22,413 nucleotides of DNA from a virus. Below are positions 404 to 14,914 of the stretch, piece by piece; position 1 is the first letter of the stretch; every line of letters begins with the position of its first letter. The translations under genes were made by a program, and so were the position numbers. The notes under the pieces are model-generated. The model ran no database searches, was not told the DNA's origin, and worked only from the letters and a program-made list of their open reading frames with translations. The stretch is taken from IMG/VR virus record IMGVR_UViG_3300032285_001294, positions 1 to 22,413 of that record; one strand, written 5' to 3'.

Positions 404-3400
404 ATGGCAAGAATCAAAAAATATGGTATAACATACGACCAACCATTAAGCGCATATGGTACATTCGTATTAGATACAGAACCAAATTCAAAATATTTTA
501 AAGTAACTCAATTTAAAGATACTTTTACCGGTGGTAAAAATGGATTTTTAATTGAAGGTAGTAAACATTTACTTGAAAGTACTGAATTAAAAGTACAAGT
601 ATTAGATGTTGCGGGGAATCCATTGTATGTTGAATATGGAAATGGTATACCTGAATATTATGAAGGTACATCTAAATTGGTTGCTGTTTATGTTTATGAA
701 GATACTCCAATTGGAGAAGCAACTATTACAATATTAGGCGAATTAAAAACATATGAAGATTCTGGTGGAGTTACATTAGATATTCCAGATGATTGGAAAG
801 GAAATTATAATGTTAAATGGAATAAAAAATTTACTATAAATAGACTTTTATCAAATGAAGATAAAGTTAGATTTTATAGAAGACCGGCTATTAGTATAGA
901 TGAAATAGTTAAACCTGTATTTTCTACAACATTTGCTACTGTTACTAAAAAAGGATTTGTTAATGGTACTCCTATTGTTCCTGTGGCAGGTACTTACATA
1001 TCTGATTATAAATTACCTACATCATATAAATTAACAACAACTGATAATACAACATGGACCGGTTCTATGGTAGGTAGTTCAATTGAACTTACTGATTTGG
1101 GATATACAGCAACAATATCAGATGTTATTAATAAAAACGAAATATTAGTTACTCAGCCATATACATTAGATGGGATAGTTGAATCTTTTTCTGGACAAAG
1201 ATATACATCTTCTTTTAATTATATTGAAGGTATTACAAATATAGCAACTGTTTTGACTGGTTCTTTTGCTAAAATTAATATTACTGATTTAACAACATTT
1301 GTGGGTGATGTTAATAGAGTTAAAATATTTAGAAAATCTCAATCACAAATTGGAGATTATCAATTTATTCAAGAAATAAAATTAGAATCAAATGAATTAT
1401 TAGTTGATTTAGAATCACAAACAACTAATTTAGATTACTACGGAATTTTTACAGAAGATGTAATTAAAAATTATTGGGTAACTTCATCTAATTCATTAAC
1501 TGCTACATTTAATCAAAATTATTTATATGATTCTGTTAAATTAAGTAGTAATACATCTAAATATTTTCATACATCAAAATCATTATCAACAACAGAAGGT
1601 AAAGAATATACTTTAAGTTTTAATATTAGAGTAAGTGGTAGTATTGATTCTTCTAACTATGTTAGAGCATTTTTAAGTGGTTCAAAAGAATCAACAAATG
1701 GAACAATTCAAGTAGAGCAAAATATTACAACAATAACATCTCAAAATAGTTTATTACAAAAAACTACATCTACTGATAATATAGAAGCTGAGCAAATAGA
1801 TAATCCTAAACTTTATTTTGAAGTTGTTGGAAATAATTGGTACATATCAAATGTTAGTTTTACATCTGCACAAGAGACAGCATTTTCTCCAGATGAAATA
1901 ACATTTATACAATCAGTACCAAGAAGTTTACCGGTGGAAACATTTGATTATAGATTTGAATTTTATGATATAAATAATAATTATATTCCTGTATTAGTTG
2001 AAAAAACAAAAACATTTAATGGAGGTAATTTACAAAATATACAAAAAAGTTTAGTATTTAGTCCAAGAAGTTTAACGTTTCAATTTGATTCTGGTTCAAA
2101 TCCAGTACCACCAACTGTAGCTGGATTTAGTGTTACTAAAAATTTATTAACTGGTTCTGTAACATATACATCACAATCTTATGATTTTGATGGTAATGAA
2201 TTATTTGCTGCAGATTATGCTGGTTATATAACTAATGGTGGTGGATTCCCTGGTTTACTTGATGATTGGAAAACTGATTCACCAAGTATGACTGTTGGAC
2301 ATTTTACTGGTTCTAGAGAAAATAAATTAGTTCAAATTGTAAAAATAACTGGAGAAGTGGAAGGTTATACAGACACAATAATTTTTACAAAAGTATTAGA
2401 TGGATTTGGTGGAGTTAATCATTTGATTAGACCTTATAGAGGTACTCAAATTAGAAATAGCAGTACTCAAAGTTTAGAAATACAAGCAGTAAGAATTGAT
2501 GGTGTTAATGATATTGAATTAAGTAGTACAACTCAACCATCAAAAGGATGGCCAACAATTCAATTGCACGTATTACATACAGCTTCTGCTGACTGGTCTG
2601 TTCCTGAAAAATTTATAAATCTATCGGTTGCATCTTCAAGCAAATATGTAAAAGGATTAACATCTGGCTCATTAGGTAGTGGTGAGATAAATTATAACGC
2701 TTCATTTGATAGAGATTCTATTGATACGAGAAGAACAATATATTTAATGTCATCAGCATCAGCTGCATCAGGTCCGGCATATCTAACATCTGGGTCTGTA
2801 TTAGCATCTATTATATTAGAAGATTTACAAGATGGATTAGATACTGGAGTAATTGCATACAATACAGATGCATTTAATATTAATTTTAGAAATAATTTAA
2901 ATTTCACTCCTCAGTTTGCATATGCAACTGCATCGTTTACTATAAGAGGAACAAATGGTGAATTGGTAACATCATCATTTAAGGTGTATCCTTCAATGTC
3001 AATTAACGCAGATTACACCCCAGAATATTGGATGTATTATACAACACAAAGTTGCTATACTGCTTCAATAGCTGTTAGTGCAATTGATGAAAATAAAAAT
3101 CCAATATATGCTGGTGCTGTTAATGGGTTAGGATTACCTAATAAGCAAAGTAAAAAATTAACTATAACATTTACATATACTGAACCATATACTTTATCAC
3201 AAACAAGTATAGATAAAACATTTACAATTGTACCTGATGGTAAACCTGGTGATGAAAGTATTGTATTTGAAGTTAATCCATTAAATATAAATTTAAAAGC
3301 AAATTCAAGAGGAGAAGTAGCAAGTTATCAATCATCTATTACTGATATAAAACTTAAACAAGGTTCTAGATATTTGGTATTTACATCAAGTATTTCTCAA

Positions 3401-6400
3401 TCGGGAACATTTTATATTGCAAAAGAATCTATAATAACATCAAGTATAACTGGTGGATTGGTTCATTTTACTTCATCATTTGGTGTACCATATACTGCTT
3501 CACTAATAGTAAGTGCTTCATCTGGATTATGTGCATTGAGTGGTAGTATTACTTACCCATTAGTAATTCATCCATATTATACATCATCAATATATACACA
3601 AAGTGTTGTACAACAATATACAAAAATATTAGATGGTCCACCACCAATAGAAGTTATTATAACTCCACTTTCTGCAAATGTAAAGGCAAATGAAGTTGGA
3701 TATATTTCTGATTATACTGCATTAGATACAACTATTAGAGTAAAAGAAGGTTCTGATTATCTTACATTTGTAACCAAATCATTTGCATCGGGAGATGCTG
3801 GTAAGGGTACATTTAGTATATTATATGGAGGAGCTGTAACATCATCAAATATTGTAATAGCAAATGTTGCATCATCATCTGCAACAACAGCTACGGTTAG
3901 ATTTAATAGATTTGATTATCCATATGTATCAGCAAGTGTATTATATAATATTCAAGTTTATCCATATTCATTAGGACCTGGTCATCAATATACATCTTCA
4001 ATTATAGAAAGAACTCAAACATTTACTAAGAATGTTGCACCAAGTGGTTCTAGAAATGTAAATTTATCCGCAACATATCAAACTGTAAATTTTGATGAAG
4101 ATGGAGTAGCGGTTACACCATCTCCTGATGAAAGTATTATATTAACTGCAAACGCATTTGGTACTACTGGTTCTGTTTGGTATGAGTTTTTTAAAAATGA
4201 TAACACAACATCCGAAACAGGAATAATACCTGATAATTTCTATGAAGTTGTTCCCGGTGATGCAACAACACCTGGTGAAAATGCAACATGGACTGTTAAA
4301 ATAAGAGATGGTAATAATTCTACATCTTCTCCAATTGTAGCACAAAGTTCTTTAACTATTTCTGGTATAAAAGCTGGAGCAAAGGCTTATAATGTATTAG
4401 TAACAAATGAAAACTCATCTGCAATATATAAAGTTTCTGGACAAATTACATTTGATGGAACTGGTACTAGAATTTTAGCAACAAAAGGAGATGTTCCTTT
4501 ATTACATAAATCAACATTTAGTGCAACAACTAATGACCAATTTGGTAACCCTATTGGTTCTTTAGGAGAATATAGAGTTACAATAGAGCAAGTATCTGCA
4601 CATATTCAAAATCATTTAGCAGGAGGGCTTATAGTAGGAAATGTAGTACCAACGGTTAGTAACGAAGCAAAGATAGGAGATATAACTGGTTGGGATTATC
4701 CTGAATCAAATCCAACAGCATTTATAGTTTATAAAGTTGATATTGAAAATGGAAGACAAGTTTTATATAAAACTCAATCATTTGCAATTCAATATGAAGG
4801 AAATACTGGACCTGGTATTGTAATGAGAGGTGAGTGGAGTGCATCGCTGGATTATATAGGAAGTGTAGAAACAACAAACTATCGTAGAGATGCTGTAATA
4901 TATGGTACAAACCCTGTAACATTTTATGCATCAGTTAGTGGTAGTGGACCTAATACACATGATAATAATTCAGTATTGATAGGACCTCAAGCACCATCTG
5001 GTACAACAGCAGATACACCATATTGGCAATATTTAGGAACTCAAGAATTCTTTGTAGCAGCTAAGATTGCAATATTTGAAGAATCCTATGTTAAGAATAC
5101 AATTAATATTGGTACTAAAGGTGGTACAAGTGCATTTGCAAATATTGTATTAGCTGGAGGACGTAATGACCCATATATGGCTATGGGACAAACAGGTACA
5201 CAAGGTAGTAGTGGTGACCAAACATCAACGGGAGTTATTGGATATAATAGACCGGGAATATTTTTAGGTATATACGAAGATGGCTCTAATGGTACAACGG
5301 GAAGATTTTCAATAAAAGCAAGTGGTACTTCTGGTAGAGGTATGTATTGGGATGGTTCTCAATTAACAATTGTTGGTAGTATTAGGCAAGTTGAACCTGG
5401 ACAAAATGAAGGAAGTTTAAGAGGAGCTTGGACTAGTGGTTTCACATATTATGCAAATGATGTAGTAACATATGGTGGTCAAAGCTGGCAATGTACATCA
5501 TCCACATCTCATGTAGCAACAAATAATACTAACACATCAACTGGTTATCCTGGTGCAGGGCCTTGGAGTGTAGCTGCAGCAGCTGGTTCTTCTGGTACTG
5601 CTGGAACTGGTGGAAGTAGTGGTGTGAATGGAGCAACTGGAGCTCCCGGCGCTGGTGTAGTATATAGAGGTGTTTGGGCCGAATATGAGCAAGATGGCAC
5701 AACTCCAAAAGATTACTTTAGAACATCAGATAGAATTGATATCGTTAAAGGTAGTAACAATCAATATTATATTTGTAAAACATCATACACACCAAATTCA
5801 GTAGATCCTGGTGGTACATCTACAAGACCTATTGATGGTGGTTCTTATTCAACTTATTGGACTTCATTTGGAGCAACATTTAGTTCTGTTGCAACTGGAA
5901 TTTTATTAGCAGAAAATGCAACAGTTACAAGAGGATTAGTATTAGGTACTGAAGGTTCTTATAGTGGATTTTTAAGAAGTGCAAATGCAAATACATTAAC
6001 ATCTGGAACTGGTTTTTATTTAGATGTAAATGGTAATTTTAGATTTGGTGAAAGTGTTATTGCGGGAAATAACTATGTATATTGGAATGGTAGTCAGCTA
6101 GATATATCTGGTAAGATTACAGCAACCGAAGGAAATATTGGAGGATTTACTATTGCTAATAATGTATTAGCAGCATCTGGAAGTTTATTACAAATAGATA
6201 CTCAAATTCCACAAATATCATTTTTTAGAAAAGGAGATTTATCATCTGCTAAAGTTGTATTAAATCCAAACGCATCTTTATCAGACCCATCAGCCGCAGC
6301 CGTATATGGTGCAAGTACTATGGATTGGACAGGTACTACATCGGTATCTGCTGTTGCTGGAACAACGGCTAATGTTGATACATATGTTATTACGGATGGT

Positions 6401-7894
6401 ATTAGTGTTAAAGGTATAACTACAACAGATGGTAGTACGGTTACTAATTTAGTAGCAGGTGTAACCGATGTACAAGTTTATATTCCACAAACGGCATTAT
6501 CTCAAACATCTGGAATTATATCAACTACTACTGCATATCCACCAAACTCACCAAACGGATATGGAGATACTTATTACTCTAGGTATCCCGGGTCAAGAAA
6601 TTCAGCAGCAAGATGGTATGTTCAACTTTATGATTCCACAGGAACTACATTGATAACGGAAGCACAAGTATCTAGTGCGGAAACATATAGATACAGTGGG
6701 TATAGTTATACATATTATATATCCAGTCCAACGTACCCATATTATTGGACAGGACCTTATACAACCGGAGGTTCATCAACAATAGCATATGCTGGTGATA
6801 TATCTGGAGGATATAAATCAACGACAATAAATGTACCATCAACAGGTCAATATAAAGTAGCATTGTGTTTAAGAGTAATTGGTGTAGCGGGTAGTATTAC
6901 TGATTCTGTTGCAGCAACTACCACATATTACGCAAATACAGCAACGGCAACTCATACAATGAGTGGAGCTATTTCATATTCAGATGTTAAATTTAAAGGA
7001 AACGTAAACAAATCAGAAATTACAGGTGGTGGATTCCAAGTAGTTTCAAATGAATCATCATATGTAAGAATATCAAGAATTGATCCAGGCTCTTATTCAT
7101 ATAGTTCTAATATATTACAAACGCGTGGTGGTACTACTGATATTGGAGCTGGTGGAGCTAATTTAGCTGACCAATGGGGTAATGATGCTCTTTATAGTAA
7201 TGGTGGTGGATATTTTACTGGTAGATTACGATGTGGTGGGGGTAATGGTGTTATAACAGCTTGGAAAGAAGTATTTAAAATTGATGGACCTTATGTAACA
7301 GCAATAGCAGACCAATATTACGCTACATTTTCAGCTAATTTATTACCATATGCTAATAATACTTGGGATTTGGGTAGTACATCAGTTGGCTGGAGAGATA
7401 TTTTTACAATTGGAGCAGTTACAACTACATCTGATAGAACTAAAAAAACAAATATAACACCATCTACATTAGGATTGGATTTTATAAATAAATTAAATCC
7501 TGTATCATATACTATGATAACTGGTAGTCAAGTGTGGGAAGAGTTACCACCAACAATTACTGTATTGGAAGAGGAAGCTCAATATGATGGGGAATATGTT
7601 ATAAAAGAAGCAATATATAAAGAAATCCCAAATCCACAAACTCCAGAAGTTATAGAAGTAATTCCTGGTAAAAGAACGCATTATGGATTAATTGCACAAG
7701 ATGTTAAATTGGTTTTAGATGATATAGGATTAACTACAAAAGATTTTGCTGGATATGTAGCCGAAGACCCAATAGAACATACAAAATTAGGATTACGATA
7801 TGAAGAATTTATATCACCTATGATTAAAGCAATACAAGAATTATCAGCAAAAGTGGATAAATTGGAAGCTGAAATAAGTAGTTCAAAAATTTAA
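404..7894 (+). CDS. giant tail fibre / host-recognition protein with C-terminal S74 intramolecular chaperone
   Basis: This 2496-residue, Ser/Thr-rich, beta-type protein is probably trimeric. The N-terminus (about 1-175) is a distinct module likely to attach to the baseplate. Middle modules are joined by linkers of the type FTKVLDG (near 664, 942, 1073 and 1208); two of the modules, from about 950 and 1083, are duplicates 129 residues apart. Three modules starting RG-x-W (R1475, R1673, R1755), with later Trp residues, resemble phage carbohydrate-binding modules. A collagen-like Gly-X-Y run spans 1728-1751. Two YW(D/N)GSQL repeats (Y1648, Y1893) have the look of fibre or tail-tip repeats. The C-terminus from S2343 (SDRTKK, then GLIAQDVK) is an S74 chaperone. 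Its Ser-Lys pair S2343/K2348 has the known spacing, so self-cleavage before S2343 should release about 154 residues. There is no Shine-Dalgarno sequence before the ATG. The glycosyltransferase genes downstream suggest that the fibre may be glycosylated. Confidence 0.88.
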   Translation: MARIKKYGITYDQPLSAYGTFVLDTEPNSKYFKVTQFKDTFTGGKNGFLIEGSKHLLESTELKVQVLDVAGNPLYVEYGNGIPEYYEGTSKLVAVYVYEDTPIGEATITILGELKTYEDSGGVTLDIPDDWKGNYNVKWNKKFTINRLLSNEDKVRFYRRPAISIDEIVKPVFSTTFATVTKKGFVNGTPIVPVAGTYISDYKLPTSYKLTTTDNTTWTGSMVGSSIELTDLGYTATISDVINKNEILVTQPYTLDGIVESFSGQRYTSSFNYIEGITNIATVLTGSFAKINITDLTTFVGDVNRVKIFRKSQSQIGDYQFIQEIKLESNELLVDLESQTTNLDYYGIFTEDVIKNYWVTSSNSLTATFNQNYLYDSVKLSSNTSKYFHTSKSLSTTEGKEYTLSFNIRVSGSIDSSNYVRAFLSGSKESTNGTIQVEQNITTITSQNSLLQKTTSTDNIEAEQIDNPKLYFEVVGNNWYISNVSFTSAQETAFSPDEITFIQSVPRSLPVETFDYRFEFYDINNNYIPVLVEKTKTFNGGNLQNIQKSLVFSPRSLTFQFDSGSNPVPPTVAGFSVTKNLLTGSVTYTSQSYDFDGNELFAADYAGYITNGGGFPGLLDDWKTDSPSMTVGHFTGSRENKLVQIVKITGEVEGYTDTIIFTKVLDGFGGVNHLIRPYRGTQIRNSSTQSLEIQAVRIDGVNDIELSSTTQPSKGWPTIQLHVLHTASADWSVPEKFINLSVASSSKYVKGLTSGSLGSGEINYNASFDRDSIDTRRTIYLMSSASAASGPAYLTSGSVLASIILEDLQDGLDTGVIAYNTDAFNINFRNNLNFTPQFAYATASFTIRGTNGELVTSSFKVYPSMSINADYTPEYWMYYTTQSCYTASIAVSAIDENKNPIYAGAVNGLGLPNKQSKKLTITFTYTEPYTLSQTSIDKTFTIVPDGKPGDESIVFEVNPLNINLKANSRGEVASYQSSITDIKLKQGSRYLVFTSSISQSGTFYIAKESIITSSITGGLVHFTSSFGVPYTASLIVSASSGLCALSGSITYPLVIHPYYTSSIYTQSVVQQYTKILDGPPPIEVIITPLSANVKANEVGYISDYTALDTTIRVKEGSDYLTFVTKSFASGDAGKGTFSILYGGAVTSSNIVIANVASSSATTATVRFNRFDYPYVSASVLYNIQVYPYSLGPGHQYTSSIIERTQTFTKNVAPSGSRNVNLSATYQTVNFDEDGVAVTPSPDESIILTANAFGTTGSVWYEFFKNDNTTSETGIIPDNFYEVVPGDATTPGENATWTVKIRDGNNSTSSPIVAQSSLTISGIKAGAKAYNVLVTNENSSAIYKVSGQITFDGTGTRILATKGDVPLLHKSTFSATTNDQFGNPIGSLGEYRVTIEQVSAHIQNHLAGGLIVGNVVPTVSNEAKIGDITGWDYPESNPTAFIVYKVDIENGRQVLYKTQSFAIQYEGNTGPGIVMRGEWSASLDYIGSVETTNYRRDAVIYGTNPVTFYASVSGSGPNTHDNNSVLIGPQAPSGTTADTPYWQYLGTQEFFVAAKIAIFEESYVKNTINIGTKGGTSAFANIVLAGGRNDPYMAMGQTGTQGSSGDQTSTGVIGYNRPGIFLGIYEDGSNGTTGRFSIKASGTSGRGMYWDGSQLTIVGSIRQVEPGQNEGSLRGAWTSGFTYYANDVVTYGGQSWQCTSSTSHVATNNTNTSTGYPGAGPWSVAAAAGSSGTAGTGGSSGVNGATGAPGAGVVYRGVWAEYEQDGTTPKDYFRTSDRIDIVKGSNNQYYICKTSYTPNSVDPGGTSTRPIDGGSYSTYWTSFGATFSSVATGILLAENATVTRGLVLGTEGSYSGFLRSANANTLTSGTGFYLDVNGNFRFGESVIAGNNYVYWNGSQLDISGKITATEGNIGGFTIANNVLAASGSLLQIDTQIPQISFFRKGDLSSAKVVLNPNASLSDPSAAAVYGASTMDWTGTTSVSAVAGTTANVDTYVITDGISVKGITTTDGSTVTNLVAGVTDVQVYIPQTALSQTSGIISTTTAYPPNSPNGYGDTYYSRYPGSRNSAARWYVQLYDSTGTTLITEAQVSSAETYRYSGYSYTYYISSPTYPYYWTGPYTTGGSSTIAYAGDISGGYKSTTINVPSTGQYKVALCLRVIGVAGSITDSVAATTTYYANTATATHTMSGAISYSDVKFKGNVNKSEITGGGFQVVSNESSYVRISRIDPGSYSYSSNILQTRGGTTDIGAGGANLADQWGNDALYSNGGGYFTGRLRCGGGNGVITAWKEVFKIDGPYVTAIADQYYATFSANLLPYANNTWDLGSTSVGWRDIFTIGAVTTTSDRTKKTNITPSTLGLDFINKLNPVSYTMITGSQVWEELPPTITVLEEEAQYDGEYVIKEAIYKEIPNPQTPEVIEVIPGKRTHYGLIAQDVKLVLDDIGLTTKDFAGYVAEDPIEHTKLGLRYEEFISPMIKAIQELSAKVDKLEAEISSSKI
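5585..5656 (+). repeat. collagen-like Gly-X-Y segment within the tail fibre
   Basis: Eight consecutive Gly-X-Y triplets (GSS GTA GTG GSS GVN GAT GAP GAG) encode fibre residues 1728-1751, flanked on each side by an RGxW module. In phage fibres such runs form a trimeric triple helix that acts as a stiff or flexible connector between receptor-binding modules. The triplet register is seen directly; the trimer is inferred. Confidence 0.7.
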
Positions 7895-7901
7895 AAACTA
7901 T

Positions 7902-7909
7902 ATATTTAT
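7902..7909 (+). promoter_or_regulatory. ATATTTAT promoter-like motif
   Basis: The motif lies in the 34-base gap after the fibre gene, 19 bases before the start of the small coiled-coil gene. The gap is almost purely A/T, so this match on its own is weak. Confidence 0.25.
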
Positions 7910-7928
7910 ATATATAAAATAATATATT

Positions 7929-8219
7929 ATGGCACAACAAATTGAAAAAGTATCTCAAGATGTATTGGATAAAATCAATAAATCTCAAACTGAAGCTAAT
8001 GCATTAATTTTTGAATTAGGTCAAATTTCTTTAAGAATTAGAGAATATAAAAATGAATTACAAAAATTAGAACAAATTAAAGTATCAATGGAGGAGCAAT
8101 TTGATAATTTATCATTACAATTGGAAAACACATTAACCGATTTACAAAGAAAATATCCTAATGGTGAATTGGATTTACAGGAAGGAGTTGTAAAATTTGA
8201 AATACCTGAAGGAAAATAA
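7929..8219 (+). CDS. small coiled-coil protein, paralogue of the protein at 11635-12000
   Basis: This 96-residue protein is mostly a long amphipathic helix (about residues 5-77) rich in Leu, Gln, Glu and Lys with heptad-like spacing. It ends in a short conserved tail: a KYPNGELDLQEG turn, then a strand (VVKFEIPEG). It aligns without gaps to the downstream 121-residue protein over about 65 residues (ELGQISLR / RFGEIYLR; RKYPNGELDLQEG / EKYPQGRINFQDG). There is no signal peptide or membrane segment, and I do not recognise a named family. Its place directly after the fibre gene would suit a fibre assembly factor, a minor virion protein or an adaptor for the glycosyltransferases. None of these is shown by the sequence. 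Confidence 0.8.
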   Translation: MAQQIEKVSQDVLDKINKSQTEANALIFELGQISLRIREYKNELQKLEQIKVSMEEQFDNLSLQLENTLTDLQRKYPNGELDLQEGVVKFEIPEGK

Positions 8220-8220
8220 A

Positions 8221-8252
8221 TTTGGTAATTTCAAAATAATTTCGTATATTTG
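8221..8252 (+). promoter_or_regulatory. Bacteroidota-type promoter upstream of the glycosyltransferase cassette
   Basis: TTTG at 8221-8224, a 20-base spacer and TATATTTG at 8245-8252 match the published Bacteroidota primary-sigma consensus (TTTG, 19-21 bases, TAnnTTTG) at every fixed position. Transcription would start near 8258-8260, leaving a leader of about 11-13 bases before the ATG at 8271. The match lies wholly in the intergenic gap. It suggests that the host polymerase can transcribe the cassette independently of the structural operon. Confidence 0.55.
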
Positions 8253-8270
8253 TTATATTAAATAATTTTA

Positions 8271-10436
8271 ATGCGTAAAAAGTTACTTTATGTGGCACCC
8301 CACCTATCTACTGGAGGACAGCCACAATATCTATACAAACAAGTAAAAGAATTTATAAATGATTTTGATATCCAAGTTGTTGAAATAAACAATAGTGGGG
8401 GTGATGCATTTGTAGTTCAAAAAAATAGAATAAAATCTTTAACAATAGTTCATACTTTAGGGGAAGATAAATCTAAAATATTAGATATAATTGATGAATT
8501 TAAACCTGATATTATACACTTTCAGGAAATACCTCAATTTGATTTATCTTTTAATATTTTAGATAGAATCTTTAGAAAAGATAGACCTTATTTTATTGTT
8601 GCAACAACACATGGTTCTCTTACAACGGTATCCGATATTATTTATCATCCAGATAGATACGTTTTAGTATCTGAATGGAGTAGGCAAAGATTTGAAGGAT
8701 TGGGAATTGAAACTGATTTATGGGAATACCCAATCGAAGAATATACTTTTGATAAAAAAGCTGCACAAAAAGAATTGGGATTAGACCCAACATGGAAGCA
8801 TGTTCTTAATGTTGGATTGTTTGCACCTGGTAAAAATCAAGGTGAAATATTTGATGTAGCTAGGCAATTAGAAAAATATAAAATTAAATTTCATTTTGTA
8901 GGTAATCAAGCTGGAAATTTTGAACATTATTGGTTGCCATTAATGAAACATAAACCAGATAATTGTATAATATGGGGAGAACGTAATGATGTAGATATTT
9001 TTTACGCTGCATGTGATATGTTTTACTTTAGTTCTAAATTAGAACTAAATCCACTCTCAGTTAAAGAAGCTCTTTCATATAAATTACCTTCTATATTTAG
9101 AAAATTACATACATATTTAGATACCTACGATAATAATCCATTAGTAACATATATTGATGATGATATTAAGGCAACAAAAGGAATTGTATTAAATATATTA
9201 AAGCCTGAATTTAATGAAATACCAGGTTGGTTTTCATTTTCCGATGTATATGATAAAATGGTTAAAATCGCACCATTTAATTCAAATTTTGTTGAGATTG
9301 GTTCTTGGTTTGGTAAATCTACAAATTATTTAATTAAAAAAATATTAGAATCTAAAAAAGATATAAAATTTACAACTATTGATACATTTAAGGGAAGTGA
9401 TGCATCTGAGTTAGATAGAGTAATTGTAAACGCACATAATAACGATATATTTTATGATTTTGTAGAAAATACAATAATATCAAATAACTACGATTCATTT
9501 GATATAATAAAAGATACATCATATAACGCATCTAAATTATTTCAAAATAATAGTATTGATTTTTTGATGATAGATGCTGACCATTCATACGAATCTGTAA
9601 CAAACGATATAAGAACTTGGTTTAATAAAATAAAACCTGGTGGTTATATTGGTGGAGATGATTATGGAGTTTTTAGTTCTGTAACAAATGCAGTAAATGA
9701 TTATTTTTATGGACAAGTAGAACAAAATTTTAGAAGTTATATTAAAAGAAAACCTCGTATTCAAATAAAACATATGTTGACAAGACCTAATGATGTTAGG
9801 GAACGAATCAGTATGGCATCTATAAAGCAATTACAAAAATATGGAATGGTATATCAACCAATTGTAAATAAAGTGTATGAAGATATACCACCGGCAGAAG
9901 GATGTAGAAGGCCTGAACATATATCTCCAACAAATACTCCAGGTGAACTACATCCTGGTGCTGGATTGGGATGGATAACTGGTAGACATTATGGATGTTA
10001 TTTAGCACATAGAGGAGCATTGGAAAGTATGAGTGATGATTTTGATTATACATTAATATTTGAGGCTGATGCATTTATCTACACTGGTATAGAAGAATTT
10101 GTTGAGGCAATATATAGAGCATGTTTTATTTCAGAAAGAGATAATGTTCCATATATAAGTTTTGCAAATAATCCATCAAGAGCAAAAGAAAATATAGATG
10201 AACTATTTTCAAAAACTGCATTTAATCAAGACCTTGCACATTGTTATTTAATTCCAAATAGAGAAAAGCAATGGTGGTTAGATAGAATGGAAGATTGTGG
10301 ATGGGATGTAGGTGACCTTTGGTATAACCATGTATTTTATAATCATCCAAGACCAAGATATACTACAAATAAAATGTATAGTAAGCAAGCAGAGGGATAT
10401 TCTTTATTAGATGAAACAAATAAAACTTGGAGTTAA
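8271..10436 (+). CDS. three-domain GT4 glycosyltransferase / SAM methyltransferase / GT25-like glycosyltransferase fusion
   Basis: The 721-residue protein has three domains. Residues 1-310 are a GT-B, GT4-like transferase: a donor loop HLSTGGQPQ (11-19), GLFAPGKNQGE (182-192), and the EX7E pair E258/E266 inside ELNPLSVKEAL. Residues 317-480 are a class I methyltransferase of the Methyltransf_24 kind: motif I VEIGSWFGKS (341-350), IDTF (370-373), FLMIDADHSYE (431-441) and KPGGYIGGDDY (455-465). Residues 495-721 resemble GT25 LPS transferases: MLTRPNDVRERI, GCYLAHRGALE (575-585) and LIFEADAF (595-602), an acidic E-A-D triplet where the family has its metal-binding acids. Together these could build and methyl-cap a short glycan. 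A host-type promoter precedes it, and its stop overlaps the next start as TAATG. Substrates are unknown; the fibre, host LPS or glycosylated DNA are all possible. Confidence 0.8.
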   Translation: MRKKLLYVAPHLSTGGQPQYLYKQVKEFINDFDIQVVEINNSGGDAFVVQKNRIKSLTIVHTLGEDKSKILDIIDEFKPDIIHFQEIPQFDLSFNILDRIFRKDRPYFIVATTHGSLTTVSDIIYHPDRYVLVSEWSRQRFEGLGIETDLWEYPIEEYTFDKKAAQKELGLDPTWKHVLNVGLFAPGKNQGEIFDVARQLEKYKIKFHFVGNQAGNFEHYWLPLMKHKPDNCIIWGERNDVDIFYAACDMFYFSSKLELNPLSVKEALSYKLPSIFRKLHTYLDTYDNNPLVTYIDDDIKATKGIVLNILKPEFNEIPGWFSFSDVYDKMVKIAPFNSNFVEIGSWFGKSTNYLIKKILESKKDIKFTTIDTFKGSDASELDRVIVNAHNNDIFYDFVENTIISNNYDSFDIIKDTSYNASKLFQNNSIDFLMIDADHSYESVTNDIRTWFNKIKPGGYIGGDDYGVFSSVTNAVNDYFYGQVEQNFRSYIKRKPRIQIKHMLTRPNDVRERISMASIKQLQKYGMVYQPIVNKVYEDIPPAEGCRRPEHISPTNTPGELHPGAGLGWITGRHYGCYLAHRGALESMSDDFDYTLIFEADAFIYTGIEEFVEAIYRACFISERDNVPYISFANNPSRAKENIDELFSKTAFNQDLAHCYLIPNREKQWWLDRMEDCGWDVGDLWYNHVFYNHPRPRYTTNKMYSKQAEGYSLLDETNKTWS

Positions 10437-11584
10437 TGATTTACGATAATTTGAAAAAAAATAAAAATAATATTGTTGAAGTTATAAACAAAGTAAATAT
10501 TAACTTTGTTAGAGGACCTTTTGTAGAAATAACAGGACCAAAACCAGCCGAATATAAAGTTGAATTTATAGATAATAAAACTAATAAAATTCTTTATAAA
10601 AGCACAATTGGAAATAATTGTTGGTGTAAATGCAGTATAGAATATTTTGTTGATTGGAAAATAAAAATATATGAAAACGATAAAATATGGCATGAAAGTA
10701 TTTTTAATGCTACCGATAAAAGAATTTATATTGCATTAGACTCTAAAGCATTAGGAGATTCATTAGCATGGTTTCCATATTTTGATGAATTTAGAAAAAA
10801 ACATAAATGTAAATTAGTAGTTTCTACATTTATGAATGATATGTTTAAAGATGAATACCCAGAAATTGAATTTGTAACTCCTGGTACAAATGTTACTAAT
10901 TTATATGGTATGTATTGCATGGGATTATTTTACAATGAAGATAGTACTATAAATGGATTAAAATCTCCAAATAATTTTAGAGAACAGACAATGCAAAAAA
11001 TGTGTTCTGATTTATTGGGTTTAGATTATGTTGAAATTAAACCAAAAATAAAAAAAAGAAATATTGAAATTGATGAAAGTTTAAAACAAGTTTGTATTGG
11101 AATACATGGAACTGCACAATCTAAATTTTGGAATAATCCAACCGGATGGCAGGATGTGGTTGATTGGTTAAATAATAGAGGATATACTGTAAGACTTTTG
11201 TCAAAAGAGGGAGATAATTATATGGGAAATAAACTACCAAACGGAATAGTTAAACACCCAGAAGGACCTTTAGAATTGGTTATGGATGAAATGAGAAAAT
11301 CTAAAGCATTTATTGGTATTGGTAGTGGATTGAGTTGGTTAAGTTGGTCTTTGGATGTTCCAACTGTTTTAATTAGTGGGTTCTCATATGATTGGGCTGA
11401 AATGCAAGATTGCATACGAATTGCGGCACCAAAAGGTAAATGCGAAGGATGTTTTAATAGATTGAGATTAGATGCTGGTGATTGGAATTGGTGTCCTGAC
11501 CACAAAGGAACTGATAGACAATTTGAATGTACCAAATCAATATCATCTCAACAGGTGATAAAAGAATTAGAAAAGTTCTTATAA
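10436..11584 (+). CDS. TibC/BAHT-type protein O-glycosyltransferase with iron-finger cysteines
   Basis: I start this gene at the ATG of the TAATG overlap with the previous stop, giving 382 residues; an in-frame TTG at 10427 is less likely. Residues 18-95 form a small beta domain (INFVRGPFVEI, CWCKC, WKIKIYEND) typical of the autotransporter strand-loop-strand O-heptosyltransferase family. A GT-B, GT9-like catalytic part follows: IALDSKALGDSLAWFPYFDE (99-118), GIHGTAQSKFWN (222-233) and IGIGSGLSWLSW (293-304). The C-terminus carries C336, C339, C353 and C365. In TibC, four cysteines in this region bind Fe(III) as an 'iron finger'. That family puts heptose on Ser/Thr of repetitive beta-structured adhesins. 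The repetitive, Ser/Thr-rich fibre encoded nearby is a natural candidate substrate. The family assignment is strong; the sugar and target are inferred. Confidence 0.85.
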   Translation: MIYDNLKKNKNNIVEVINKVNINFVRGPFVEITGPKPAEYKVEFIDNKTNKILYKSTIGNNCWCKCSIEYFVDWKIKIYENDKIWHESIFNATDKRIYIALDSKALGDSLAWFPYFDEFRKKHKCKLVVSTFMNDMFKDEYPEIEFVTPGTNVTNLYGMYCMGLFYNEDSTINGLKSPNNFREQTMQKMCSDLLGLDYVEIKPKIKKRNIEIDESLKQVCIGIHGTAQSKFWNNPTGWQDVVDWLNNRGYTVRLLSKEGDNYMGNKLPNGIVKHPEGPLELVMDEMRKSKAFIGIGSGLSWLSWSLDVPTVLISGFSYDWAEMQDCIRIAAPKGKCEGCFNRLRLDAGDWNWCPDHKGTDRQFECTKSISSQQVIKELEKFL

Positions 11585-11599
11585 AAATAAAAAAAAGAT

Positions 11600-11607
11600 A
11601 TAGTTAT
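11600..11607 (+). promoter_or_regulatory. ATAGTTAT promoter-like motif
   Basis: A one-base variant of the recurring ATATTTAT motif lies 27 bases before the start of the second coiled-coil gene. It is embedded in an A/T-only gap and is weak on its own. Confidence 0.2.
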
Positions 11608-11634
11608 ATATACAAACAATTAAAATAATAATTT

Positions 11635-12000
11635 ATGGCAGAGTTAGACAAAATTCCACAACAAACGCAGATTACAATTGAAACTGCTAAAATAGACGAG
11701 GATGTATTTAAATCATTAAACGATTTAAATAATCAAATCGGTCAATATGTAGGTAGATTTGGTGAAATTTATCTTAGAAAAAAGGAAATCCAAGAAGAAA
11801 TAATCAGAATGGATGATACTTTAGAAAGATTGGAAGATGATTTTAGAAGTATGAACAATGAATTGAGAGAAATGCTTGATGGTATTGATGAAAAATATCC
11901 ACAAGGTAGAATCAATTTCCAAGATGGTACAATACAATACCAACCAGGTGCACCAACTAGAAAACAACTAGCTGAGCAACAATCACAACAAGGTATGTAA
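11635..12000 (+). CDS. small coiled-coil protein, paralogue of the protein at 7929-8219
   Basis: This 121-residue protein has an N-terminal strand-like stretch (QTQITIETAKID, residues 10-21), a long charged helix (about 24-84) and the motif EKYPQGRINFQDGTIQYQPG shared with the smaller paralogue. A polar Gln-rich tail follows (EQQSQQGM). The N-terminal extension and Gln-rich tail are absent from the other copy. It closes the glycosylation cassette, so the two paralogues bracket the two glycosyltransferase genes. No membrane segment, signal peptide or named family is recognised. A structural or adaptor role for the paralogue pair is inferred from position. Confidence 0.8.
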   Translation: MAELDKIPQQTQITIETAKIDEDVFKSLNDLNNQIGQYVGRFGEIYLRKKEIQEEIIRMDDTLERLEDDFRSMNNELREMLDGIDEKYPQGRINFQDGTIQYQPGAPTRKQLAEQQSQQGM

Positions 12001-12034: not shown

Positions 12035-14914
12035 ATGAAAGGATTAGCAAAATTTTTAGTGGAATCAATATTATTGGAAGCGGCTCCGATAGACAAGGTA
12101 ATAGTTGTTTATTCAGGCCGCTTTCAACCTTTTCATAAGGGCCATTACGCTACTTATGATAATTTAGTAAAAAAATTCGGAAAAGATAGTGTATATATTG
12201 CAACTTCTAATGTTACCGATAATAAAAAATCTCCATTTAATTTTAGTGAAAAGAAAGCAATAATGACAAAAATGTTTGGGATTCCCTCAAACAAAATTGT
12301 TAATATTCGTAATCCATATGCACCTGAGGAAATCCTAAATAAATATGATAAAGATACAACTGGTTTAATAGTTGTAGTTGGTGAAAAAGATGAAAATCGT
12401 TTGGGTGGTAAATATTTTACCCCATATAAAGGAAAAGTAGAAGAACCTTATTTGGATAGAGGATACGTTTATGCAGCACCCGCAACATCAAATCCTATTA
12501 GCGGTACTGATGTTCGTTATTGGTTAAGTGCTGGTAGTGAAGCAGAAAGAAAGAAAAATTTTACAAAAGCATATCCTAAGTTTGATGACCAAATTTTTAA
12601 AATGATTACTCTTAAGTTGAAAAAGCTTAAAGAATGTATCAATGAAGAAATTAACTTAAATGTAAAGGTTGGAGATACTCTATTGATGGGTAAATTCAAA
12701 AATAAAAAAGTATTGGTTAAAGATATTGGTAAGGATGAATGGGGAATGCCAACTATAAATGGTAAAAAAGCAGTAACATTTAGAATACCTAAGAAAGATG
12801 ATTTAAAAGAATTTGCATTTGGAACTGGGGCAGCTGGTGCTGGTACACCTGCTAGTGGATTTCCTGGAGGAATTGGAACTGGATTAAGTTTACCATCCGG
12901 ATATATAAATGGTTCACCAGACCCAAAGGATGTTAAAAAAACAGCAAAGAATTTAAAGAAAAAAGATGATGACCAATATGAACCAGTTGATGAAATAGCT
13001 GTACAAGCTGATAGAATACCTGGTGGGTTAGCAAAAGGTAAAACTTTAATTGATTTGGCTAAGAAGTGGGATGTTAAGGAATATTATGACCCAAAGCAAT
13101 TTGCAGCAGAATATATTAAACCTAGATTGATGGCTGGTATTAAAGTTGAAATGGAACACACAACGGATGTTCGTATTGCAACTGAAATAGCTATGGACCA
13201 TTTGTGGGAAGATTTACATTACTACGAAAAGCTATCAAAAATTGAAAACGAAAGTTTATTAGAATATAGTGGAGCTGATGCGTTTTATAATGATGGTAAT
13301 ACAGTAACTGGATATCAATGGAATCCTGATTGGGAAGATTATGATACTGCCGGATATTATACAAAAGATTTGCCAGGTTGGGCTAACTATCACGAAAAAC
13401 CATCTGAGCACGAAATTAAAAGATTAAAAAATCAAGCTAAACTTCCTGTTGATAATCACGATGATAGTGTACACAAATATAATCGTACATTAAAGTATGA
13501 TTATAAATTACCATCTGATTTTATAAAGGGCGATGGTAAGAGTACGGCTGGTACAACTGATGCATATCCTAATCAATACGATAACCAACCGGGAACTGAT
13601 GAAAGAATCAATATGGACCCGAATGTTGATATTGATGGTGAGTTGATAAAAGATGAAGAAAGACATATTGCTAAAAGTGTAAAATTAAGAAACCCAATTA
13701 AAGAATCAATATTATTAGAAGGTGGGGCTTATGGTCATATGAATCATCCATTTGATATTGAAATGAATCTTACATTTGGTGATTTGAAAAATATTGTTAA
13801 AAAAGCACTTAATGGTGATTTAGAATTAGCAAGAGAAAAGACTGATGGACAGGCATTAGCAGTTAGTTGGGTAGGTGGTAGATTAGTTGCTGCTCGTAAT
13901 AAATCTCACTTAAAGAACAAAGGAGCTGGTGCTATGAGTATAGGACAAGTTGCTAGTAAATTTGGTGGTAGAGGTGGATTAACCGATGCTTATAATTTTG
14001 CTATGCAAGATTTATCAAAAGCAATTTCTGGATTAAGTGAAGCTCAAAAGAAAAAAGTATTTAAGGATGGTGCATGTTTTATGAATTTGGAAGTAATATA
14101 CCCAACATCAGTAAATGTAATTCCTTATGGACAGCCTTTATTAGTATTTCATGGTACATTTGAATATGATGATGCTGGTAATATAATAGGAGAAAATCAA
14201 GACGCAGCTAAAGTATTGGCTGGTATGATTAAACAAATTAATGCAGATGTTCAATCAAAATATACAATACAAGGACCACCAATGCAATCATTACCAAAAT
14301 CAGATGATTTGGTATCTCACCAAGGAAAATATTTAGGAATGATTTCTAAACTACAATCTGAATTTGGATTAAAAGATTCAGATGGAGTGGCCGATTATCA
14401 TCAGGCTTGGTGGACTAACTTTGTTGATAAGAATGCAAAGAAGTTAGATGCACAACAAAAATTAGGATTGGTTAAGAGATGGGCATTTGGTAATAAAACA
14501 TTTAGAATAGCTGATATAAAAGATGATAAATTAAAAGCTTGGGCTGAGCAAATTGATAAGCAAGACCAACAAAAGATATCAAAACAAAATCTAATGAGAT
14601 TTGAAGAAATATTCTTAGGTGTTGGAGCAGATGTATTATCATTTATGACATCAGTACTTACTGCAAATCCTGATTCTGCTAAAAAACAAATGGTAGCTCG
14701 TTTAAATAGTACAATATCTCAAGTAAAAGCAAGTGGTGACCCTAAGAAGATTGAAAAATTAAAATTAGAGTTACAAAGATTAAATGCTTTGGGTGGATTT
14801 GATAAAATTGTACCAAATGAGGGTATTGTATTTGTATATGGAGGTAACACTTACAAATTAACAGGTGCATTCGCACCGCTAAATCAAATTTTAGGTATTT
14901 TCTTCGATAAATAA
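12035..14914 (+). CDS. NMN-adenylyltransferase-like / DUF5661-like / KxDG ligase-like fusion, putative internal head protein
   Basis: The 959-residue protein appears to hold three domains. Residues about 20-200 are a HIGH-type nucleotidylyltransferase: SGRFQPFHKGH (27-37) and ISGTDVR (155-161), as in NadM/NadR NMN adenylyltransferases, which make NAD+ from NMN and ATP. Residues about 319-404 resemble DUF5661 (GIKVEMEHTTD, EIAMDHL, YYEKLSKIE). Residues about 567-959 carry covalent-nucleotidyltransferase (DNA/RNA ligase) motifs: K602-T-D-G, LEVIYP around E686, EGIVF (929-933) and YKLTG with K941. The N-terminus MKGLAKFLVE resembles T4 capsid-targeting leaders such as MKTYQEFIAE. SILLE occurs both at 11-15 (before Ala) and at 558-562 (before Gly), each fitting the gp21 cleavage rule (Leu/Ile-x-Glu before a small residue). 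Cleavage would free the ligase-like part from the NMNAT part. Domain calls are good; packaging, processing and substrates are inferred. Confidence 0.8.
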   Translation: MKGLAKFLVESILLEAAPIDKVIVVYSGRFQPFHKGHYATYDNLVKKFGKDSVYIATSNVTDNKKSPFNFSEKKAIMTKMFGIPSNKIVNIRNPYAPEEILNKYDKDTTGLIVVVGEKDENRLGGKYFTPYKGKVEEPYLDRGYVYAAPATSNPISGTDVRYWLSAGSEAERKKNFTKAYPKFDDQIFKMITLKLKKLKECINEEINLNVKVGDTLLMGKFKNKKVLVKDIGKDEWGMPTINGKKAVTFRIPKKDDLKEFAFGTGAAGAGTPASGFPGGIGTGLSLPSGYINGSPDPKDVKKTAKNLKKKDDDQYEPVDEIAVQADRIPGGLAKGKTLIDLAKKWDVKEYYDPKQFAAEYIKPRLMAGIKVEMEHTTDVRIATEIAMDHLWEDLHYYEKLSKIENESLLEYSGADAFYNDGNTVTGYQWNPDWEDYDTAGYYTKDLPGWANYHEKPSEHEIKRLKNQAKLPVDNHDDSVHKYNRTLKYDYKLPSDFIKGDGKSTAGTTDAYPNQYDNQPGTDERINMDPNVDIDGELIKDEERHIAKSVKLRNPIKESILLEGGAYGHMNHPFDIEMNLTFGDLKNIVKKALNGDLELAREKTDGQALAVSWVGGRLVAARNKSHLKNKGAGAMSIGQVASKFGGRGGLTDAYNFAMQDLSKAISGLSEAQKKKVFKDGACFMNLEVIYPTSVNVIPYGQPLLVFHGTFEYDDAGNIIGENQDAAKVLAGMIKQINADVQSKYTIQGPPMQSLPKSDDLVSHQGKYLGMISKLQSEFGLKDSDGVADYHQAWWTNFVDKNAKKLDAQQKLGLVKRWAFGNKTFRIADIKDDKLKAWAEQIDKQDQQKISKQNLMRFEEIFLGVGADVLSFMTSVLTANPDSAKKQMVARLNSTISQVKASGDPKKIEKLKLELQRLNALGGFDKIVPNEGIVFVYGGNTYKLTGAFAPLNQILGIFFDK

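Follow-up and report, generated by a model that had tools for sequence, protein, structure and literature searches.

A TibC-like glycosyltransferase cassette that probably modifies the giant tail fibre of a T4-like phage

The DNA analysed here, all 22,413 nucleotides of IMG/VR virus record IMGVR_UViG_3300032285_001294 (positions 1 to 22,413; hereafter the window), is one strand of the late region of a T4-like phage, in which a gene for a giant tail-fibre-like protein adjoins a cassette of genes for sugar-transferring enzymes. On the + strand, the fibre gene (404-7894) is followed by cc1, P0003, P0004 and cc2, and thereafter by genes for a nucleotidyltransferase-like protein, terminase, portal and prohead protease. 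All the open reading frames of the cassette were found at the coordinates claimed for them in an earlier reading of the bare DNA (the sequence-only reading), which had proposed that the phage glycosylates its own fibre. The closest named relatives of the terminase are those of Flavobacterium immuto phages (58%) and Microcystis phage Mel-JY01 (55%), and the window phage is a member of a large T4-like group known from metagenomes.

P0004 (10436..11584, + strand, with an in-frame TTG at 10427) encodes a TibC/BAHT-family heptosyltransferase. Its TibC-like nature, proposed earlier, was borne out: residues 23-383 matched TIGR04414, the Aah/TibC equivalog model, with 285.3 bits (cut-off 200), and the solved structure of TibC (PDB 4rap) was matched with an E value of 1.2e-54. 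D111, T229, K233 and W304 of P0004 correspond to the catalytic Asp-110 and the sugar-binding Thr-226, Lys-230 and Trp-305 of TibC; the catalytic Asp and three of the four sugar-binding residues are thus retained. The four iron-finger cysteines (C339, C342, C356 and C368) are also kept, and are invariant across 8 aligned phage sequences. In a tree of 45 rows, TibC and the classical BAHTs formed one well-supported clade (100/99), with the sequences from phages, and the bacterial ones that resemble them, outside it. The sequence-only reading had taken both Ser and Thr as the established substrate of such enzymes; the acceptor residue demonstrated for TibC is serine, not threonine (PMC4358343). 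Enzymes of the established family use ADP-heptose as the donor and form a dodecamer.

The enzymes could instead alter the host surface, i.e. its lipopolysaccharide (LPS) or O-chain, at a late stage of infection, as a means, for instance, of preventing superinfection or releasing progeny, their proximity to the fibre being due to a shared role with the receptor. ADP-heptose is the textbook donor for the LPS inner core, and LPS synthesis includes soluble enzymes of GT4, GT25 and GT9-like folds. A precedent that speaks for this reading and against a fibre target comes from pelagimyophages, where glycosyltransferases of the tail-fibre region, accompanied by rfaE (HldE) among the phage genes, were read as modifying the O-chain; in the passages of that paper available to us the enzymes are mostly GT8 and no TibC-type enzyme appears (PMC7029224). 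P0004, in contrast, scored 285 bits as a protein heptosyltransferase and only 26 bits with the LPS heptosyltransferase I model, and has the TibC iron finger; its cousins in phages and bacteria lie near [ST][ST]G-repeat proteins, and the transferases track the fibre shaft, not the neighbouring genes (both described below). For these reasons a protein is favoured over LPS as the target, and modification of the host surface, though the main rival reading, is considered unlikely.

P0003 (8271-10436, + strand; 721 residues) is a multi-domain protein. The first two of the domains earlier assigned to it are clear: the GT4 glycosyltransferase domain (8271..9215) matched Glycos_transf_1 (PF00534) with 41.5 bits, exceeding the Pfam gathering score of 26.4, and the sugar O-methyltransferase-like domain (9291..9665) matched Methyltransf_24 with 67.7 bits and TylF with 31.2 bits. 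The assignment of the third domain (9771..10433) to GT25 found support only in structure. By sequence the match to Glyco_transf_25 (PF01755) is weak (13 bits, E 0.093, under the gathering score of 24), whereas a Foldseek search with the predicted structure found R655 of mimivirus (E 8.9e-7), a putative collagen glycosyltransferase of GT25 type. Mean pLDDT of the P0003 model was 65.8, with the highest values in the methyltransferase and third domains. It was also considered whether the transferases act on modified bases of phage DNA, as in T-even phages. Phage glycosyltransferases often glycosylate DNA (textbook knowledge), and the methyltransferase domain matches a PHROG labelled 'DNA methyltransferase'. 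However, the enzymes come from families directed at proteins or sugars, the Foldseek matches of the methyltransferase domain were the sugar O-methyltransferases MeT1, NovP, SpnH and MycF, the genes lie in the structural region, and no base-modification gene was seen in the window, all of which makes DNA a most improbable target.

The proposed acceptor (404..7894, + strand) is, as described earlier, a fibre of 2496 residues with an intramolecular chaperone match in its tip (Peptidase_S74 at 7430..7522; 39 bits, cut-off 22). Comparison with its relatives revealed a conserved shaft (residues ~300-1600) and a highly variable tip (residues 1700-2496), in which little identity is left from relative to relative, the region being one that recombines. 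An AlphaFold2 model of part of the shaft (2036..4438, + strand; mean pLDDT 75.7) predicted tandem beta-sandwich domains of cadherin/Ig-like type; its top Foldseek matches were protocadherins (E 2e-11), the likeness being local only. The typical fold of autotransporters is a beta-helix, from which the modelled shaft differs. The description of the fibre as repeat-built fits these tandem domains of the model but not the DNA, in which there was no repeat structure. The canonical acceptor repeat TIGR04415 (SLS repeats) was absent from the fibre in an NCBIfam search, and one ground for seeing the fibre as a typical TibC/BAHT acceptor failed with it. Two short stretches deserve mention as regards acceptor sites. 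The Gly-X-X stretch GQTGTQGSSG (5186..5215, + strand) is confined to part of the clade, and the collagen-like stretch GSSGTAGTGGSSGVNGATGAPGAG (5585..5656, + strand) is a candidate Ser acceptor site by its likeness to [ST][ST]G repeats. Just over half of the clade's fibre tips (16 of 30) have S74, and among 72 loci carrying a similar S74 domain TibC was nearby in just one, so the association of transferases with S74 fibres for which the sequence-only reading had suggested a genome search was not found. Among the same 30 C-termini, four matched an intein splicing domain and two matched Gp53-like_C, pointing to differing tip types on one common shaft.

Conservation of the arrangement was followed in 80 IMG/VR loci that hold the nearest relatives of the TibC-like enzyme. 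A P0003 homologue lay immediately upstream of TibC in 79 of them, the sole exception (L019) being a locus that starts only 90 bases before TibC, and the fibre lay upstream wherever the locus reached that far. Judged by gene order, the cassette arrangement is not chance. The products of cc1 (7929..8219, + strand) and cc2 (11635..12000, + strand) are predicted coiled-coil proteins, and the paralogy already noted between them was confirmed (HHalign 99.6%, E 3.8e-24). In the TerL-based set, matches to their hidden Markov models were restricted to cassette-bearing loci.

HldE is the enzyme that makes ADP-heptose. An HldE-C-like gene was located between TibC and cc2 in 36 of the 77 loci that span this gap, together with an HldE-N-like gene in 25 of those 36; HldE-like genes were also seen in 5/79 TibC loci of other phages. 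The best NCBIfam models for them were the heptose adenylyltransferase and kinase domains of rfaE (TIGR02199, E 4e-25 to 2e-29; TIGR02198, E 1e-24 to 2e-28), and the usual HxGH and GAGD motifs are present in the sequences of the relatives' proteins. A complete phage-encoded heptose pathway was rejected, GmhA being absent from 15 partial clade contigs, Mel-JY01, LR756501, LR756508 and a Flavobacterium phage. Two huge phages with TibC-like genes carry other genes of this kind, neither of them adjoining TibC: a GmhA gene in LR756504 (L096; 430182-430640) and a heptose-7-phosphate kinase-like gene in LR756501 (L088; 209213-210175).

Outside the window clade, 79 dereplicated phage TibC loci were compared with 75 TerL and 71 S74-fibre loci, all without TibC. 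Strict [ST][ST]G runs were found within 6 kb of TibC in 35/79 phage loci as against 0/75 TerL and 0/71 S74 loci (Fisher p 7e-13 and 3e-12), counts in which the loci are not independent and the first may be biased, GTSG-repeat proteins being neighbours at the loci that supplied the three query sequences. The TibC domain shares its reading frame with a P0003-type GT4 at 34 of the 79 loci. Most simply, GT4 and TibC would share one substrate, a protein, and in the window phage this would be the fibre. One such fusion is found in the Microcystis phage Mel-JY01 (PP395634.1; L082, 4750-8430), where the gene annotated 'methyltransferase FkbM' encodes a GT4-methyltransferase-TibC fusion of 1226 residues and lies close to a reading frame, for the most part unannotated, in which GTSG-type triplets are repeated at great length. 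Since Mel-JY01 is named and its host is recorded, it would allow a direct test of the idea.

The bacterial cousins of these enzymes, from Methylobacter, Methylomicrobium, other Methylococcaceae and other Gammaproteobacteria, adjoin secreted proteins in which GTSG or SSG triplets abound (L118, L119, L120, L113, L114 and L124-L126), and these neighbours are possibly new bacterial glycoproteins without an autotransporter. The acceptor repeat TIGR04415 was missing in 17 of 18 bacterial genomes with similar TibC-like enzymes. Among 151 genomes of the Methylobacter order, a tandem G[ST][ST] run was present in all six with this type of TibC (304-327 bits), in 9 of the 145 others and in none of the three with classical BAHTs (>650 bits); the gene beside TibC accounts for only part of these runs, the genomes are relatives of one another, and some codons for residues other than Ser/Thr also fit the DNA pattern. 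The chances are about even that these loci belong to a widespread and so far undescribed phage glycoprotein system, in which TibC-family enzymes of a non-autotransporter kind put heptose on serines of [ST][ST]G-type or beta-sandwich phage fibres and of secreted bacterial GTSG-repeat proteins; such enzymes are often GT4 fusions, and in some cases donor genes of HldE type are linked to them.

Pairwise distances of the shaft correlated with those of TibC and of P0003 when TerL was taken into account (partial Mantel r 0.49 and 0.58, p 0.001), and the co-variation also held separately in the Hld- and Hld+ subsets. With the next downstream genes, NT and p7, the shaft showed no co-variation overall (-0.03 and -0.12); in the Hld+ subset (9 loci) the NT-shaft correlation was 0.44 and the tip-P0003 correlation 0.46. 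Physical linkage can contribute to the co-variation of shaft and transferases. Fibre and cassette might be linked by modular exchange of the adhesion region alone, with no enzyme-substrate relation, an account with which the recombining region and the low tip identity among relatives agree. Yet the tip, which lies nearer to the transferases than the shaft does, gave overall values of only 0.09 and 0.05 with TibC and P0003 against 0.52 and 0.60 for the shaft, a contrast that is not conclusive because tip distances are close to saturation (median 0.76). Exchange alone is regarded as a very poor explanation of the linkage.

Taken with the near-invariant linkage of the genes, the enzyme families, most of the active-site residues, the HldE linkage, the GT4-TibC fusions and the co-variation are features read from sequence. 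The proposal of phage-encoded fibre O-glycosylation stands on the linked HldE-like genes, the fusions, the shaft co-variation and the [ST][ST]G linkage, and not on Ser/Thr content, acceptor repeats or the S74 domain. The cassette is probably one for protein O-glycosylation that acts on the phage's own giant fibre, and heptosylation of fibre serines is the most likely role of the TibC-like enzyme. We infer the donor, the fibre as acceptor, the order of steps and their effect as follows. The TibC-like enzyme would take heptose from a donor of ADP-heptose type and attach it to fibre serines; the donor would be supplied by the host in the window phage, while many relatives may bring their own through kinase and adenylyltransferase genes of HldE type. 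Further sugars would then be added by the GT4 and GT25-like modules of P0003, and one of these sugars would be O-methylated by the methyltransferase of the same protein. The conserved shaft or short stretches of Gly/Ser/Thr, rather than the variable tip, probably hold the sites, and cc1 and cc2 may assist in assembly or present the substrate. The modification could mask or stiffen the fibre or change its choice of receptor.

Several observations weigh against fibre heptosylation. Arg-286 of TibC, which contacts adenine, is Val-285 in P0004 and Pro-300 is replaced by Gly, so the donor may differ; this Arg is highly conserved in the family, and its substitution by Ala abolished or largely diminished activity (PMC4358343). 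The HldE-like proteins scored under the curated equivalog cut-offs (88-102 and 87-100 bits, compared with 181.5 and 345), and no HldE-like gene is present in the window, for which reason the donor would have to come from the host. The fibre is indeed rich in Ser (10.7%) and Thr (11.4%), but this is undistinctive: Ser+Thr amounts to 18.6-23.7% in fibres of relatives without the cassette at the same site, with a mean of 20.4% where the cassette is present. Ser/Thr enrichment is therefore not diagnostic of an acceptor and was rejected as evidence for glycosylation. Gly-X-X runs of at least three triplets with Ser/Thr were lacking in 25 of 37 clade fibres, so this motif cannot be the sole acceptor; GTSG as a universal acceptor in the clade was likewise rejected, merely 12/37 fibres having even short runs. 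As many clade fibres have no such stretch and the others only short ones, acceptor sites may also lie in the shaft. Neighbouring genes can travel together, and linkage and co-variation leave the substrate unproven. In L182, L185, L194 and L195 a fibre-like gene directly precedes the nucleotidyltransferase gene and the cassette is absent there, but the L182 contig carries a GT4-TibC fusion elsewhere (L299) although the site itself is cassette-free. L182 was accordingly withdrawn as a TibC-free control.

This occurrence of TibC off site would also suit a cassette that glycosylates another protein, such as a different virion appendage, cc1 or cc2, or a host surface protein. So would the many clade fibres without evident GTSG-type sites, the restriction of cc1 and cc2 to the cassette and the cc2-TibC co-variation of 0.66. 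The fibre, on the other hand, is the large structural gene regularly found beside the cassette where the locus reaches it, and its shaft tracks both transferases. Another protein target can be given roughly one chance in six, and the fibre is retained as the probable acceptor.

No description of TibC-type enzymes in phages was found in the literature searched, most subscription papers lying outside its reach. Virion glycosylation itself is already known from mycobacteriophages: capsid and tail tube proteins bear glycans (Freeman et al. 2023, as cited in PMC12619734). Both systems involve glycans on phage virion proteins; the targets in that account are other ones, the fibre being the proposed acceptor in the window phage, with heptose-type donor genes linked in its relatives. 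The TibC/AAH BAHTs (TIGR04414; PMC4358343) and P0004 belong to the same family by the curated model and share the catalytic and iron-finger residues described above. P0004 differs as a phage gene that branches outside the classical clade and has R286 and P300 changed, and it adjoins a GT4-methyltransferase-GT25-like protein and a fibre instead of an autotransporter partner or SLS acceptor repeats. The mimivirus enzymes R655 and R699 (PMC9546862) offer a further parallel, as virus enzymes of GT25 type with collagen-like proteins, R655 being the match of P0003. They place hydroxylysine-linked sugars on collagen, whereas the collagen-like stretch in the window is very short and no lysyl hydroxylase gene was seen there. 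If the fibre is indeed the acceptor, many phages would glycosylate the fibre that meets the host with their own enzymes, some of them with their own donor genes. Adsorption and recognition would then be under an extra layer of control that sequence-based receptor prediction ignores, and the TibC family would extend beyond virulence autotransporters to a second class of acceptors, the [ST][ST]G-repeat proteins of phages and bacteria.

Other genes were noted around the cassette. Downstream of cc2, positions 12035-14914 of the window encode a protein of 959 residues whose N-terminal domain is NMN-adenylyltransferase-like; a KTDG motif farther along looks, by eye, like one of nucleic-acid ligases. 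A DUF6445 gene lies between fibre and cc1 in L063 (6934-7530), L080 (4475-5080) and L077, and near TibC in the other-phage loci L252 and L391. In L007 (172-2141), a radical SAM/SPASM protein and a protein of 314 residues without a Pfam match occupy the expected fibre position just upstream of cc1. Extra proteins with long PTPAP/APTP runs were found, also just upstream of cc1, in L035 (3896-7525), L037, L042 and L044, directly followed by a prolyl-4-hydroxylase-like 2OG-Fe(II) oxygenase (PF13640, 62 bits), and hydroxyproline modification in a phage appendage is possible at these loci.

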